Positions 1 through 5,212 of a stretch of 5,212 nucleotides of DNA are shown here, one piece after another; the first letter of the stretch is position 1, and each line of letters starts with the position of its first letter. The stretch comes from Chthoniobacterales bacterium (lineage in GTDB: Bacteria; Verrucomicrobiota; Verrucomicrobiae; Chthoniobacterales; UBA10450), in the NCBI GenBank assembly GCA_003244125.1, contig QHBL01000064.1, positions 1-5,212 on the forward strand. The letters are read 5' to 3'. A model generated the notes under the pieces. That model was not told the DNA's origin, did no database searches, and saw only the letters and a list, made by a program, of their open reading frames with translations. The position numbers and the translations under genes are program-made.

Positions 1-819
1 ACCGATCCGCGGAAGACGGATTTGTTCGCCAAGTTCAATTGGCCGCGCGTCTCCTGTCCGAGCATTGATTTTTCGCTGCCGCAAAACGAACGCGAACACG
101 ACGTGGCCGAGCGCGAGAAACAGTGCGGTTCAGAAATTCGCAAATTCCTGGAGGAACGCGGCGCTGACATTTGCGCGATCATCATCGAGCCAATCCAAGG
201 CGAAGGCGGCGATAATCATTTCCGCGGCGAATGGCTGAGAACTCTGCGCCAGGTCGCCGACGCGAACGATGTGCTGCTGATTTTTGACGAAATCCAGTGC
301 GGCGGCGGCACCACCGGCAAAGCGTGGTGCTGCGAGCATTTCGGCGTGGTGCCTGACCTTGCGGCGTTTGGGAAAAAGATTCAGGTCTGCGGCGTGCTGG
401 CTGGACCGCGCCTCGATGAAGTGAAGGATAACGCGTTCCGTTTGCCCTCGCGCCTGAACTCAACCTGGGGCGGCAATTTCACCGACATGGTGCGTGCGAA
501 ACATTACCTGCGCATTATCGAGCAGGAAAACTTGATCGAGAACGCCGGAACGGTCGGCGCTTACTTCATCGAGCGACTGCTGGAGTTGCGGAACGAGTGC
601 GAATTGGTCTCGGCCGTGCGCGGCCGCGGATTGTTCATCGCGTTTGATCTGCCGGATGCAAAGACGCGCGACGACATCTGGCGTGAGCTCTTCGACGCCG
701 GCGTGCTGGCGCTGAAGTCCGGTGAACGCGCGATCCGTTTCCGGCCGGCTCTCGATATCACGCGTGAAGTCGTTGACGAAGCGATGGACGTGCTGCGTCA
801 ACACTGCCGGGCGCGATGA
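1..819 (+). CDS. lat: L-lysine 6-transaminase, C-terminal part (5' end outside window)
   Basis: This PLP-dependent class III aminotransferase moves the epsilon-amino group of L-lysine to 2-oxoglutarate, giving 2-aminoadipate 6-semialdehyde and glutamate in the cytosol. The frame is open to base 1 and homologous residues precede the first possible start (TTG at 22), so the gene begins upstream. 272 codons are present and roughly 170-180 are missing. Family landmarks seen are EPIQGEGGDNHFR (about 187-225), FDEIQ with the PLP-ring Asp at 286-288, FGKK with the Schiff-base Lys at 373-375, SRLNSTWGGN with Thr at 463-465, and a C-terminal RFRP (736-747). The Glu-Asp-Lys-Thr spacing of 28, 29 and 30 residues matches E243, D271, K300 and T330 of Mycobacterium tuberculosis Rv3290c as I remember it. 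This separates it from ornithine and 4-aminobutyrate transaminases. It is the first gene of the apparent operon in this window; its promoter is not visible. Confidence 0.95.
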   Translation, partial: TDPRKTDLFAKFNWPRVSCPSIDFSLPQNEREHDVAEREKQCGSEIRKFLEERGADICAIIIEPIQGEGGDNHFRGEWLRTLRQVADANDVLLIFDEIQCGGGTTGKAWCCEHFGVVPDLAAFGKKIQVCGVLAGPRLDEVKDNAFRLPSRLNSTWGGNFTDMVRAKHYLRIIEQENLIENAGTVGAYFIERLLELRNECELVSAVRGRGLFIAFDLPDAKTRDDIWRELFDAGVLALKSGERAIRFRPALDITREVVDEAMDVLRQHCRAR

Positions 820-918: not shown

Positions 919-964
919 AGACGCCAAAACCAACACGCGAGACGCGTGCGCTACCCGGATTGTG

Positions 965-2503
965 ATGCGCACCGTTCTGGAGAAACTGGGAATCACTGGC
1001 GAAAACGACGGCGTTTTCTGCGGCGAATGGCGCGCCGGCGCCGGGCCGGTGATCGAGAAAATCTCGCCAGTCGATGGTCGCGTTCTTGCGCGCGTGCGCA
1101 GCGCGTCGGCTGAGGAGTACGAGCAGACGATCACGCGCGCGCACGAAGCTTTTTTAAAATGGCGCACGACGCCTGGGCCGGTGCGCGGTGAAACGGTGCG
1201 GCGACTCGGCAACGCCTTGCGCGAATCGAAGCACGAGCTCGGCACGCTCGTGACTCTCGAGTCCGGAAAAATTCTCCCCGAAGGCGAAGGCGAAGTGCAG
1301 GAGATGATCGACATCTGCGACTTCGCCGTCGGGCAATCGCGCATGCTCTACGGACTAACGATCCAATCAGAGCGACCGCAACATCGTTTGATGGAGCAAT
1401 GGCATCCGCTTGGCGTCGTCGGTGTGATCAGCGCCTTTAATTTCCCCGTCGCGGTCTGGTCGTGGAATGCGGCTTTGGCTGCCGTCTGCGGCGACGCCAT
1501 CATTTGGAAGCCGAGCGAGAAAACGCCTCTAACCGCGATCGCGGTGACGAAAATCGCGGAGCGTGTTTGTCGCGAGAGCGGCGCTGATCCGGCCATTTTC
1601 TCGCTCGTTATCGGTGACGGACCTTCGATCGGCCAAAAGCTCGCGAGCGATCGACGGGTTGCTCTTATTTCAGCGACCGGATCAACGCGGATGGGTTGTC
1701 ATGTCGGGCCCGCTGTGGCCGGGCGGCTGGGCAAAGCATTGCTCGAACTCGGCGGCAACAACGCACTTATCGTCAGTCCGACGGCTGATCTCGCGATGGC
1801 GACGAGCTCCATTTTTTTCGGGGCGGTGGGGACTGCGGGACAACGCTGCACGAGCACGCGGCGCGTCATCATCCACGAAAGCGTAGCCGACAAAATTCGC
1901 GACTCGTTAGTGCGCGCTTACAAGACGGTGTGCATCGGCAATCCGCTCGAGAAACAAACGCTGATGGGCCCGTTGATCGATGGCGACGCGGTGGAAAATG
2001 TGCAGCGCTCGATCGCGAAAGTGCGCGACCAGGGCGGGGAGATCCTTTACGGCGGCGACAAGCTCGACCTTCCTGGCGGTTGTTACATGACGCCGTGTCT
2101 GGCGCGGGTGCAGACAGAGATCGAGATCGTGCAGCACGAGACCTTCGGGCCATTGCTGTATCTGATGACGTATCGGGATTTTGATGAAGCGCTGGCCATC
2201 CACAACGGCGTGTCGCAGGGACTCAGCTCCGCCATTTTCACCAATGACGTGCGCGAGGCTGAGAAATTCGTCAGCGCACTCGGCAGCGATTGCGGAATCG
2301 CCAATGTGAATACCGGGACAAGCGGCGCGGAAATCGGCGGAGCGTTCGGCGGCGAGAAGGACACGGGCGGCGGACGCGAGAGCGGGAGCGACTCGTGGAA
2401 GAACTATATGCGGCGGCAGACGAATACGATCAACTTCTCGAGGGAGCTGCCGCTGGCGCAGGGGATCCAGTTCGGCGCGGGAGAAGGAAGCGCCACCGCG
2501 TAA
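965..2503 (+). CDS. amaB: L-2-aminoadipate-6-semialdehyde dehydrogenase (ALDH7/antiquitin family)
   Basis: This NAD(P)-dependent aldehyde dehydrogenase oxidises 2-aminoadipate 6-semialdehyde, the product of the preceding gene, to L-2-aminoadipate. The 512-residue length is normal for the family. Visible are the cofactor-domain Asn in SAFNFPVAVW (N159), the SATGSTRMG nucleotide-binding loop, the general-base Glu in LELGGNN (E261) and the catalytic Cys in GQRCTSTRR (C295). The C-terminal stretch TSGAEIGGAFGGEKDTGGG, followed by RESGSDSWKNYMRR, is a hallmark of antiquitin (human ALDH7A1, bacterial AmaB/Pcd) and sets it apart from generic ALDHs. I chose ATG 965. GTG 962 directly before it is also in frame, and neither has a clear Shine-Dalgarno sequence. 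It lies 145 bp after lat, with the gap filled by a palindromic repeat. The symbol amaB follows pseudomonad usage. Confidence 0.93.
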   Translation: MRTVLEKLGITGENDGVFCGEWRAGAGPVIEKISPVDGRVLARVRSASAEEYEQTITRAHEAFLKWRTTPGPVRGETVRRLGNALRESKHELGTLVTLESGKILPEGEGEVQEMIDICDFAVGQSRMLYGLTIQSERPQHRLMEQWHPLGVVGVISAFNFPVAVWSWNAALAAVCGDAIIWKPSEKTPLTAIAVTKIAERVCRESGADPAIFSLVIGDGPSIGQKLASDRRVALISATGSTRMGCHVGPAVAGRLGKALLELGGNNALIVSPTADLAMATSSIFFGAVGTAGQRCTSTRRVIIHESVADKIRDSLVRAYKTVCIGNPLEKQTLMGPLIDGDAVENVQRSIAKVRDQGGEILYGGDKLDLPGGCYMTPCLARVQTEIEIVQHETFGPLLYLMTYRDFDEALAIHNGVSQGLSSAIFTNDVREAEKFVSALGSDCGIANVNTGTSGAEIGGAFGGEKDTGGGRESGSDSWKNYMRRQTNTINFSRELPLAQGIQFGAGEGSATA

Positions 2504-2655: not shown

Positions 2656-4044
2656 ATGACGACAGCTACGTTAGATGGGAAACAACGCGCGACGGAATCG
2701 CGGTTTGAATGGCCGCTCTGCTACGAGGCGGAGAATTTCATCATCGAGCGCATCGACGCTTTCACGCAGCAGAACGGTTTTGCGCGCGAGCTTTCCACAC
2801 GGATGCGCGATGAGACTGGCACGCTCATTCTCGATTGGACGGATTATCTGCTTCTGCCCGCGTCTGATGAAAAGGCGCTGCGCGATCTCGGCTACAGCGA
2901 TGATCCAATGGCCGATGCGCCTGATGCGCAGAAGCAGCTTTGGCATCCGCAAGCGATGTTGCCGCGAGTCTTGATCGCGCCGACAAACGCGAAGTATCCG
3001 CTCGCCCTCGGAATTCGCGCGGAGGATCTCGCGATCTTCGCGGGGGTGTATGGCGTTACGAACCCGATCGAAGGCGCACCGCTCTCGCGTTTCCGCAAGA
3101 TGCTGATCTCGGAGGAAAACGGGGCGCGCTTCGAGGTGATCGAGCGCCGCGCGTATCGCGGTTACACGACGGCCGAGCCGGATTTGAAGGCGTACCTCGC
3201 GGCGCGCGAGCTGTGGCAGACGCGGCGCCGAGTGTGGGATGACGATCGCGCGGGGATGAAACACGGGCTGGAGCGGATCGAACAGATGGTGAAGCTGGTC
3301 GGCCAGGATTTGGCCTGTCATCTCGTCTTCGAAGAGGAGCGTCGCTATTGGCAGAAGCGAAACCGGGCTGGAACGGAACAGAAGCGCCGGCAGGACTCGT
3401 TAGGCTTGGGTTGGGCGAATCACGACCATCACACCTACCGTTCGTCGCGCGAGTGTTTCGTCGATTTGATCAAAGCGTGGGAACTGCTCGGGTTTCATCG
3501 CCGCGAGCGCTACTATGCCGGTCAGGAAGCGGGCTGGGGGGCGCAAGCCGTGGAGCAACCGATCGAGGGAATTATTATTTTCAACGACGTCGATTTGAAC
3601 CCCGATGAGGTGGATGTGGATTTCTCGCGGAAGGAACTGCCTTCGCAGCCGACTCTCGGGACGATTGGACTCTGGTGCGGTTTGCACGGCGAGAGTTTTC
3701 TCGAGGCGGGGATGCATCATCTGGAGTGCCGTTTCGATCACGCGCTGCTGCGCGATCAACTGAAAGCGGAAGGCATAAACACGATGAAACCGTTCTCCGA
3801 TTTTCCGTTCCTGAAACAGGCGTTTACCGAAGGCGAGCGGTGGACTGTTCGTCGCGCGCGCGCCGAACGACTGCTGCAGAATCAATCAATCACGGACGAC
3901 CAGTTTGCGGAGTTCACGAAAAATGGCGCGATCGGCAGCCACCTCGAAAACCTTCAGCGCAAAGGCGGCTTCAAAGGATTCAATCAGCACACAGTGAGCC
4001 TGATTATCGCGGAGACCGATCCGCGGAAACAGCAGGCGCATTGA
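2656..4044 (+). CDS. Uncharacterised protein of the lysine cluster; possible VOC-fold metalloenzyme, distantly HglS/DUF1338-like
   Basis: I do not firmly recognise this 462-residue protein. It has no signal peptide or membrane segment, so it is probably cytosolic. The N-terminal half (about 1-245) is mixed alpha/beta with no motif I can name; it includes WHPQAMLPRVLIAP from residue 96. The C-terminal half looks like a vicinal-oxygen-chelate enzyme: NHDHHTYRSS (255-264), then a helix ending in LLGF (277-280), a hydrophobic strand IIIFNDVD (306-313), MHHLECRF (353-360), and HLENLQRKGG (429-438). The H-x3-R (H258/R262), His354 or His355, and Glu431 resemble in order and local context the metal-binding His, His, Glu and substrate Arg of 2-oxoadipate dioxygenase/decarboxylase HglS (464 residues). 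Spacing differs and the alignment is only by eye. Position between aminoadipate-semialdehyde and glutaryl-CoA dehydrogenases favours a lysine-pathway role. Start: ATG 2656 is preferred; TTG 2638 in frame would add six residues. Neither has a clear ribosome binding site. Confidence 0.8.
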   Translation: MTTATLDGKQRATESRFEWPLCYEAENFIIERIDAFTQQNGFARELSTRMRDETGTLILDWTDYLLLPASDEKALRDLGYSDDPMADAPDAQKQLWHPQAMLPRVLIAPTNAKYPLALGIRAEDLAIFAGVYGVTNPIEGAPLSRFRKMLISEENGARFEVIERRAYRGYTTAEPDLKAYLAARELWQTRRRVWDDDRAGMKHGLERIEQMVKLVGQDLACHLVFEEERRYWQKRNRAGTEQKRRQDSLGLGWANHDHHTYRSSRECFVDLIKAWELLGFHRRERYYAGQEAGWGAQAVEQPIEGIIIFNDVDLNPDEVDVDFSRKELPSQPTLGTIGLWCGLHGESFLEAGMHHLECRFDHALLRDQLKAEGINTMKPFSDFPFLKQAFTEGERWTVRRARAERLLQNQSITDDQFAEFTKNGAIGSHLENLQRKGGFKGFNQHTVSLIIAETDPRKQQAH

Positions 4045-4073: not shown

Positions 4074-5212
4074 GTGGCCTCGCTGGATTACTACGGGCTC
4101 GAAGAACTCCTGACCGACGAGGAGCGCGCCGCGCGTGGCCGGGCGCGGCGGTTTGTCGATGAAGAGGTGATGCCCGTCGTGGTGGATAGCCACCGCGAGG
4201 GGCATTTTCCTGAGCAGCTGATTCCGCGGATGGGGGCGTTGCGTTTCTTTGCGCCGCATCTGCACGGGCATGGCTGTGCTGGCTTAAGCCAAACTGCGTA
4301 TGGCCTCATCATGCAGGAGTTCGATCGCGCGGATTCCGGTCTGCGCTCGCTCGCGTCTGTCCAAGGTTCGCTCGCGATCCACGCGATTCACTCTTTTGGC
4401 ACACCGGAGCAGCAGGCGCGTTGGCTGCCGGGATTGGTGGACGGAACACGCATCGGTTGCTTCGCGTTGACGGAGCATGGCCACGGCTCTGATCCCCGCG
4501 GAATGGAGACACGCGCGACCCGCGATGGCGAGCATTATGTGCTGAACGGCAGCAAGTGCTGGATCGGCAACGCATCGATCGCGGATGTGAAGGTGGTCTG
4601 GGCCAAGGATGAGGATGGCCACGTCGGCGGGTTCGTTGTCGAAAAAGCTTCGCCTGGTTTTCGCGCGCAGGACATCGACGGGAAGTTCAGCCTGCGAATG
4701 TCACGCACGTCCGAATGCTGGTTCGAGGATTGCCGCATTCCCGCAGAGAATCGCCTGCCGAATGCGAATGGCTTGCGCGCACCGCTTTCGTGCCTCTCGC
4801 AGGCGCGGGTCGGGATTGCTTGGGGCGTGATCGGCGCCGCGATTGATTGTTATGAGACGGCGCTCGCCTATGCGAAGGCGCGCGAGCAATTCGGACGTCC
4901 AATCGCCGGGTTCCAGCTCGTGCAGGAAAAGCTCGTCTGGATGGTGCAGGAAATCACGAAGGCGCAGTTGCTGGCGTTGCGCCTGACGCGAATGCTGGAA
5001 GCCGGCGATGTGCGGCCGGCGCAGATTTCGCTCGCGAAGCGCAACAACGTCTGGATGGCGCTCGAATGCGCCCGCAAGGCGCGCGACATCCTCGGCGCCG
5101 CAGGAATTACCGACCGCTACTCGGTCATCCGGCATTTGATGAACCTCGAGAGCGTCTACACCTATGAAGGCACGCACGACATCCACACGCTCGTCGTAGG
5201 ACAGGATGTCAC
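4074..5212 (+). CDS. gcdH: Glutaryl-CoA dehydrogenase, decarboxylating (3' end outside window)
   Basis: This FAD flavoprotein of the acyl-CoA dehydrogenase family converts glutaryl-CoA to crotonyl-CoA and CO2, passing electrons to electron-transfer flavoprotein. The frame is open from GTG 4074 to the window edge: 379 whole codons, with about a dozen C-terminal residues missing. Diagnostic segments are LDYYGLEELLTDEE at the start, GCAGLSQTAYGLIMQE, the substrate-binding Arg in GLRSLASVQGSL (R91), KFSLRMS, ARVGIAWGV, LAKRNN, and RHLMNLESVYTYEGTHDIH with the catalytic Glu at residue 365 (5166-5168). This set matches human GCDH closely and distinguishes it from short-chain acyl-CoA dehydrogenases. 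An in-frame TAA at 4062-4064 limits the start to GTG 4074 or the rare codon ATT 4068. The gene starts 29 nt after the third gene, which supports cotranscription. One oddity is that the usual LTEP-x2-GSD loop reads LTEHGHGSD (residues 132-140). Confidence 0.93.
   Translation, partial: MASLDYYGLEELLTDEERAARGRARRFVDEEVMPVVVDSHREGHFPEQLIPRMGALRFFAPHLHGHGCAGLSQTAYGLIMQEFDRADSGLRSLASVQGSLAIHAIHSFGTPEQQARWLPGLVDGTRIGCFALTEHGHGSDPRGMETRATRDGEHYVLNGSKCWIGNASIADVKVVWAKDEDGHVGGFVVEKASPGFRAQDIDGKFSLRMSRTSECWFEDCRIPAENRLPNANGLRAPLSCLSQARVGIAWGVIGAAIDCYETALAYAKAREQFGRPIAGFQLVQEKLVWMVQEITKAQLLALRLTRMLEAGDVRPAQISLAKRNNVWMALECARKARDILGAAGITDRYSVIRHLMNLESVYTYEGTHDIHTLVVGQDV

Follow-up and report, generated by a model that had tools for sequence, protein, structure and literature searches.

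Within the window analysed here, a 5,212-nucleotide stretch from the genome of a soil bacterium of the Chthoniobacterales (contig QHBL01000064.1, assembly GCA_003244125.1), part of a lysine operon contains a gene for a 462-residue protein, hereafter the target. We propose, with a probability of roughly 0.7, that the target is a tandem-duplicated, sequence-divergent hydroxyglutarate synthase, in which an N-terminal DUF1338-type VOC domain lacking a metal site would precede a second such domain that carries a 2-His-1-Glu Fe(II) site and converts 2-oxoadipate. The proposal draws on computed residue conservation, the predicted folds of both halves, the lysine-gene context, the occurrence of the hydroxyglutarate synthase HglS at the corresponding operon position in other genomes and the lack of co-occurrence with HglS in the sampled genomes. 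An earlier reading, made from the sequence only, had tentatively placed the protein, encoded in a lysine operon, within the HglS (DUF1338, VOC) fold as a divergent offshoot. Structural neighbours, a neighbourhood survey and the complementary distribution of HglS all agree with this placement, which is well supported by prediction.

Both halves of the target are predicted to adopt a DUF1338-type fold

An AlphaFold model of the target was computed from a 65-row alignment, in which the window protein was joined by 9 homologs out of 120 listed and by 55 of the 80 loci, and reached a mean pLDDT of 90.1 and a pTM of 0.88. Foldseek placed HPPD and HMS on top (E of about 3e-8), but with a TM of 0.2-0.3 and an rmsd of ~20 over the whole chain. 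In VIA-align, the leading chains were of the DUF1338 type, namely FLO7 with a Z of 16.7 (rmsd 3.4 over 215 residues), 3iuz with 15.6 and 3lho with 15.1, followed by HMS (12.4), Pseudomonas putida HglS (12.2 and 12.1), YdcJ (12.0) and HPPD (11.8). This DUF1338 match of the whole model is carried by the C-terminal half (residues about 206-462).

The N-terminal half, which the sequence-only reading had left unexplained, does not appear to be an unrelated extension. Predicted by itself (pLDDT 91.2), it again matched DUF1338 chains best in VIA-align, with 3lho at 12.7 (model residues 22-173 against residues 2-253 of 3lho), 3iuz at 12.4 and FLO7 at 11.1, followed by YdcJ (8.2), P. putida HglS (7.7), HMS (7.6) and other VOC proteins at about 7. 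Foldseek returned 3lho alone at E <= 1e-3. The three DUF1338 structures exceed HMS by about 3-4 Z with the whole model and by about 3.5-5 Z with the N-terminal half, and both halves are nearer to DUF1338 chains than to HPPD. A novel fold had been considered for the N-terminal half and was dropped after this separate prediction.

A DUF1338-type VOC fold is predicted in both halves, and the target does not follow the single-VOC-domain plan of HglS. As each half resembles a near-complete short DUF1338 protein, a tandem duplication is suggested, with the N-terminal half predicted to be a second, degenerate copy of the fold of the C-terminal half. Direct comparison of the two halves by hhalign gave a probability of 0.4% and does not show the duplication; a short likeness is seen by eye between xxxER-GYRGF in the N-terminal half and ENLQRKGGFKGF in the C-terminal half. 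By prediction, the target has a plan of two VOC domains of which the C-terminal one would be catalytic, as in HPPD and HMS, conservation pointing to the catalytic half.

A putative metal site is conserved in the C-terminal domain

In all 65 aligned members, D257, H258, H259, T260, R262, H354, H355, R359, E431 and R435 are invariant, while Q434 is found in 60. The motifs HHTYR (258-262), HHLECR (354-359) and ENLQRKG (431-437), picked out in the sequence-only reading, are found at just these residues, and the predicted strands 258-262, 355-359 and 429-435 agree with strands one, five and eight of the VOC fold. According to PMC7286885, HglS holds its metal with H70, H226 and E294 and has its arginine at R74. 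The P. putida sequence reads H70-G-A-I-R74, I-N-H226-L-T-P-R and E294-I-E-Q-R, and the target counterparts are H258-H-T-Y-R262, H355-L-E-C-R359 and E431-N-L-Q434-R435. The order H..R / H..R / E..QR, with an arginine four residues past the first histidine, is as in HglS, in line with the sequence-only reading. Short DUF1338 proteins carry D-H-x-A-x-R, N-H-F and E-F-A-x-R (D-H-x-A-x-R, N-H and E-F-A-x-R in FLO7 and 3lho), and HPPD from the host genomes carries D-H, G-V-Q-H and F-E-x-I-Q-R (E-V-I-Q-R was also read).

The Fe(II) ligands are probably H258, H355 and E431, with H259 and H354 as alternatives. R262 lies four residues past H258 in 65/65 members, matches the position of R74 in HglS and would contact the substrate. 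Spacings between the putative ligands are 97 and 76 residues in the target, 83 and 79 in HPPD (locus L091) and 156 and 68 in HglS. The previously remarked difference in His-His spacing from HglS is real, and the target is in fact nearer to HPPD than to HglS.

All 65 members have D63 in the N-terminal half; it is followed by a histidine in 52 of them and by a tyrosine in the window protein. Because the 65 members show no conserved second histidine, no glutamate at the ligand position and no arginine at H+4, this half has probably lost its metal site and is probably not catalytic.

The target belongs to a large unnamed family

At E <= 1e-3, 6862 of 7997 scored candidates were retained as homologs; this number and the invariance of the motif residues in 65 members argue that the target is not a chance open reading frame (ORF). 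Wherever the names of the 120 listed homologs are readable they are 'hypothetical protein', several of them from Chthoniobacterales or Verrucomicrobiota. That no family can be named, as first supposed, was borne out: no Pfam family matched up to E 10 and no NCBIfam family up to E 0.1, the 4HPPD profile TIGR01263 included. PF07063 was listed for none of the 65 aligned members up to E 10, a search in which HMMER's filtering removes the majority of matches with an E above 0.1. Sequence and profile searches of the PDB gave weak, unrelated matches only (among them radixin, an ESAT-6-like protein, CBFA2T2 and BfpB), and none of the matches assigned the target confidently to another fold. In the open-access literature searched, no paper on the family turned up. 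The match of one homolog (L078, 6068-7591) is split in two, which would point to a frameshift or to an error in the assembly.

Over 82 columns, profile-profile comparison by hhalign aligned the N-terminal half with short DUF1338 proteins (32 of 120 listed homologs plus the query, the protein of genome G110) at a probability of 8.8% (P 0.0038) and placed D63-H/Y64 on the D-H of the first ligand. As a control, short against long PF07063 members gave 6.4% and P 0.0058. On these scores, the link of the N-terminal half to short DUF1338 proteins is as strong as one within the accepted PF07063 family. In a weak alignment of the C-terminal half with the same proteins, H258, R262, E431 and R435 are in register and the second histidine is not. 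Against HPPD (6 of 8 loci above the cut-off, two being dropped for overlong ORF starts), the best local piece of the target is the E-x-x-Q-R region, which is not significant (P 0.06-0.21).

A profile of long HglS, built from two loci and 30 of the 120 HglS homologs listed, recovered only HglS and YdcJ from the PDB up to E 10 and missed FLO7, 3lho and 3iuz. FLO7 has the same activity as HglS at about 15% identity, according to PMC7286885. Since such a test misses true PF07063 members, weak profile scores do not argue against kinship. Of the kinship with HglS first suggested, the predicted DUF1338 fold stands, and within DUF1338 the target is nearer to short proteins such as FLO7 and 3lho than to P. 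putida HglS. The short protein of G110 (L086, 1102-1905) has 268 residues, matches 3lho at 4.5e-71 and rice FLO7 at 1.5e-31, and has 2975 homologs among 4513 candidates.

The target mostly lies beside lysine genes and appears to take the place of HglS

For the neighbourhood survey we used the best 80 of 316 confirmed genome loci; the counts lean to close relatives, and several loci end near the gene. The gene for L-piperidine-6-carboxylate (P6C) dehydrogenase lies beside the target in 53 loci (52 on the same strand), that for L-lysine 6-transaminase (LAT) in 17 and a saccharopine-dehydrogenase-like (SDH-like) gene, defined by PF16653/PF03435, in 26. One or more of these genes occurred in 55/80 loci, and homologs are not mostly found away from lysine genes. 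Two arrangements prevail, LAT - P6C dehydrogenase - target and target - SDH-like - P6C dehydrogenase, the SDH-like gene starting 24-221 bp past the target. For the 25 loci without lysine neighbours, P6C dehydrogenase was found elsewhere in 9 genomes. A good match to glutaryl-CoA dehydrogenase adjoins the target in a single one of the 80 loci (L007, a fragment before the gene, 81% over the contig edge), and three others reach 27-28% identity. A thiolase-like gene, not glutaryl-CoA dehydrogenase, follows the target in eight loci (L002-L005, L007, L008, L012 and L076); the best model of the L004 copy is PRK06289, at 362 bits under a cut-off of 375.

In genomes G143 and G182, the genes for HglS, an SDH-like protein and P6C dehydrogenase follow each other on one strand, an order equal to target - SDH-like - P6C dehydrogenase. 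PF07063 was absent from 25/25 target-bearing genomes. Among 286 genomes sampled from the class, with P6C dehydrogenase counted at E <= 1e-150, 27 had this enzyme, 17 the target (13 of them together with P6C dehydrogenase) and 6 PF07063 (all 6 together with it). No genome had both the target and PF07063, and 8 genomes with P6C dehydrogenase had neither. The chance of zero overlap within the 27 is 0.010, and enrichment in P6C dehydrogenase genomes has a P of 4e-12 for the target and 4e-7 for HglS, values that serve as guides, because the genomes are related by descent and some may have gaps. In this sample, G489 and G506 match the target-family model by short pieces only, G336 has weak upstream matches (32-35%) of the LAT and P6C dehydrogenase kinds, and no lysine gene neighbours the target within the 16 kb read in G385. 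Of 288 genomes sampled from the phylum, 7 had the target and 6 PF07063. Among the 15 with P6C dehydrogenase the numbers were 7 and 5 without overlap (P 0.019), a result not independent of the class sample, in which all 15 recur. The sixth PF07063 genome is G110, with its short 3lho-type protein and no P6C dehydrogenase above the cut-off.

Four PF07063 ORFs (L107 in G192, L084 in G099, L085 in G204 and L103 in G498) span 566-615 residues and match the profile in two pieces; as a side reading, some Verrucomicrobiota would carry an HglS interrupted by an inserted segment.

Proposed reaction and alternative functions

A hydroxyglutarate synthase function is likely. Downstream of LAT or the SDH-like enzyme, and of P6C dehydrogenase, the C-terminal domain would convert 2-oxoadipate and O2 into 2-hydroxyglutarate and CO2, with R262 holding the distal carboxylate of the substrate, and 2-hydroxyglutarate would then be oxidised to 2-oxoglutarate. 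We infer the metal ligands, substrate and product, an N-terminal copy that has become inactive, and the step from aminoadipate to oxoadipate, for which no search was made.

The sequence-only reading had favoured glutarate as the product. This is now less supported because a gene resembling D-2-hydroxyglutarate dehydrogenase adjoins the operon, which favours 2-hydroxyglutarate. The best NCBIfam model of this gene is D-2-hydroxyglutarate dehydrogenase YdiJ (575 bits, under the cut-off of 1350). In 6/80 loci it is found upstream of the target in divergent orientation, within 300 bp in L021, L027, L039 and L065 and within 3.2 kb in L031 and L036. In the HglS-bearing genome G192, a YdiJ-like gene stands beside the SDH-like and P6C dehydrogenase genes. 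Among 26 of the 27 class-sample genomes with P6C dehydrogenase (G489 was left out), close YdiJ relatives (at least 58% identity) occur in 6/6 with HglS, 5/12 with the target and 1/8 with neither, that is, 11/18 against 1/8 (Fisher 0.036).

Several observations weigh against our proposal. There is no significant sequence-profile link, as hhalign gave probabilities of 1.4% for the target against long HglS and 0.3% against HPPD, and the C-terminal half aligned weakly with short DUF1338 proteins (1.4%, P 0.038, 191 columns). P. putida HglS and HMS tie in VIA-align (12.2 vs 12.4). Four of the 17 class-sample target matches lie outside the P6C dehydrogenase set, one of them (G519) with a cut P6C dehydrogenase gene directly upstream, and 16 of the 80 loci are in genomes with no neighbouring lysine gene and no P6C dehydrogenase found. 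Close YdiJ relatives are absent from 7/12 target-bearing genomes, and weaker ones (E <= 1e-20) occur in 26/26, so that YdiJ presence alone says little. Finally, glutaryl-CoA dehydrogenase is the next gene after the target in the window. The loci in genomes without lysine markers include Planctomycetota and Brocadiales (L069, L071, L074, L075 and L080), and members outside lysine operons may perform the same chemistry on another 2-oxo acid. An SDH-like protein was not found in 17 genomes (those 16 and G385), in a search that had no positive control and shows little.

The same fold and metal site could serve another reaction, either an oxidative decarboxylation ending at glutarate, which would reach glutaryl-CoA dehydrogenase after CoA activation, or the conversion of 2-aminoadipate or P6C. 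We consider this unlikely. The adjoining glutaryl-CoA dehydrogenase gene in the window, the fragment in L007 and a ligand spacing unlike that of HglS would fit it, as would a related genome (G038) in which neither the target nor PF07063 was found: its locus L109 (4684-8971) holds LAT and P6C dehydrogenase genes and, on the opposite strand, a glutaryl-CoA-dehydrogenase-like gene (53%), possibly a glutaryl-CoA branch. Yet glutaryl-CoA dehydrogenase is rarely adjacent across the 80 loci, YdiJ-like genes lie beside the operon, and HglS itself occupies the same slot. Moreover, in HglS-family chemistry a glutarate-only outcome requires an uncoupled ferryl.

Still less probable is that the target acts on a substrate outside lysine catabolism, as an alpha-keto-acid oxygenase akin to HPPD and HMS or as some other VOC enzyme, its operon position being secondary. 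HPPD likewise consists of two VOC domains of which the second alone is active, and the Foldseek ranking, the ligand spacing and the 16 loci without the lysine markers sought would agree with such an enzyme. VIA-align, however, ranks three DUF1338 structures above HMS for both the whole model and the N-terminal half, 55 loci adjoin lysine genes, and true HPPD is separately present, above the cut-off, in 8/25 host genomes. A replacement of HPPD by the target was dropped in view of these separate copies. That the target is a VOC protein of lysine operons with a regulatory role or no enzymatic activity, to which the seeming loss of the metal site in the N-terminal copy might point, is highly improbable given that the C-terminal copy retains all putative ligands and the arginine in 65/65 members.

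Gene layout of the window

The ORF and the matches of its neighbours agree with the initial placement of a 462-residue protein between the aminoadipate-semialdehyde dehydrogenase and glutaryl-CoA dehydrogenase genes. On one strand, the window holds LAT (partial), P6C dehydrogenase, the target and glutaryl-CoA dehydrogenase (partial). An alternative TTG start at 2638 would give a target of 468 residues. LAT scores 347 bits, under the whole-protein cut-off of 521 (TIGR03251), because the gene is truncated by the window edge. The top solved relatives of the downstream acyl-CoA dehydrogenase are named glutaryl-CoA dehydrogenase (2eba 2.8e-127, 3sf6 7.6e-123, 1siq 3.9e-108), and no NCBIfam equivalog matched at its cut-off. 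Imperfect palindromic repeats lie in the gaps between LAT and P6C dehydrogenase (827-956) and between P6C dehydrogenase and the target (2520-2626), with arms of 37 nt (78%) and 21 nt (86%); a portion of the second, GTCATCCTGAGCG..., recurs in L031 and L052 among 102 loci scanned.

Table 1. Features of the window and of the target protein.
Feature	Position	Strand	Remarks
LAT, 3' part, clipped by window edge	1..819	+	TIGR03251 E 1.3e-103
P6C (2-aminoadipate semialdehyde) dehydrogenase	962..2503	+	NF050084 788 bits, cut-off 730; start codon uncertain
Target gene	2656..4044	+	462 aa from ATG 2656; predicted tandem HglS/DUF1338-type VOC protein
N-terminal degenerate DUF1338-type domain (predicted)	2698..3180	+	residues about 15-175
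C-terminal domain	3271..4041	+	residues about 206-462; predicted catalytic
H258-H259-T260-Y261-R262	3427..3441	+	candidate for the first metal-binding His, with the putative substrate Arg at H+4 (cf. H70/R74 in HglS)
H354-H355-L-E-C-R359	3715..3732	+	putative second metal His, fifth strand
E431-N-L-Q434-R435-K-G437	3946..3966	+	putative metal Glu, last VOC strand
Glutaryl-CoA dehydrogenase, 3' end clipped by window	4074..5212	+	2eba, 3sf6, human 1siq matches

Comparison with known systems

On balance, we lean towards a second lineage of hydroxyglutarate synthases, with tandem domains, that arose by duplication of a short DUF1338-type domain, let its first copy decay, came to an HPPD-like plan and replaced classical HglS in the operon slot. 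This lineage would make up a large bacterial family that lacks annotation and is, in this analysis, represented best in Verrucomicrobiota. Both the predicted duplication and the exchange of HglS for the target in the operon slot were recognised in this analysis. If true, our proposal would assign a role to thousands of proteins without a Pfam or NCBIfam name and account for the 2-oxoadipate step of lysine catabolism in those Verrucomicrobiota in which no PF07063 was found. It would also suggest a route from a one-domain VOC oxygenase to an HPPD-like two-domain one via duplication and decay.

With the HglS/DUF1338 proteins, short (rice FLO7 6w1k, 3lho and 3iuz) and long (P. putida HglS 6w1g/6w1h and YdcJ 2rjb), the target shares the best structural neighbours of both its halves, the short type foremost, as well as the D-H-x3-R and E-x3-R motifs, the position in lysine operons and the operon slot in which it is exchanged for HglS. 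Unlike them, it has no PF07063 match or significant profile link, two domains instead of one and a His-His spacing of 97 rather than the 156 of P. putida HglS. With HPPD and HMS it shares the VOC fold, a two-domain plan with a predicted C-terminal catalytic domain, the E-x-x-Q-R motif and a similar ligand spacing. However, it aligns to HPPD and HMS at lower Z than to short DUF1338 proteins and has no sequence link to them, its gene neighbourhood is different, and its hosts can carry a separate HPPD.
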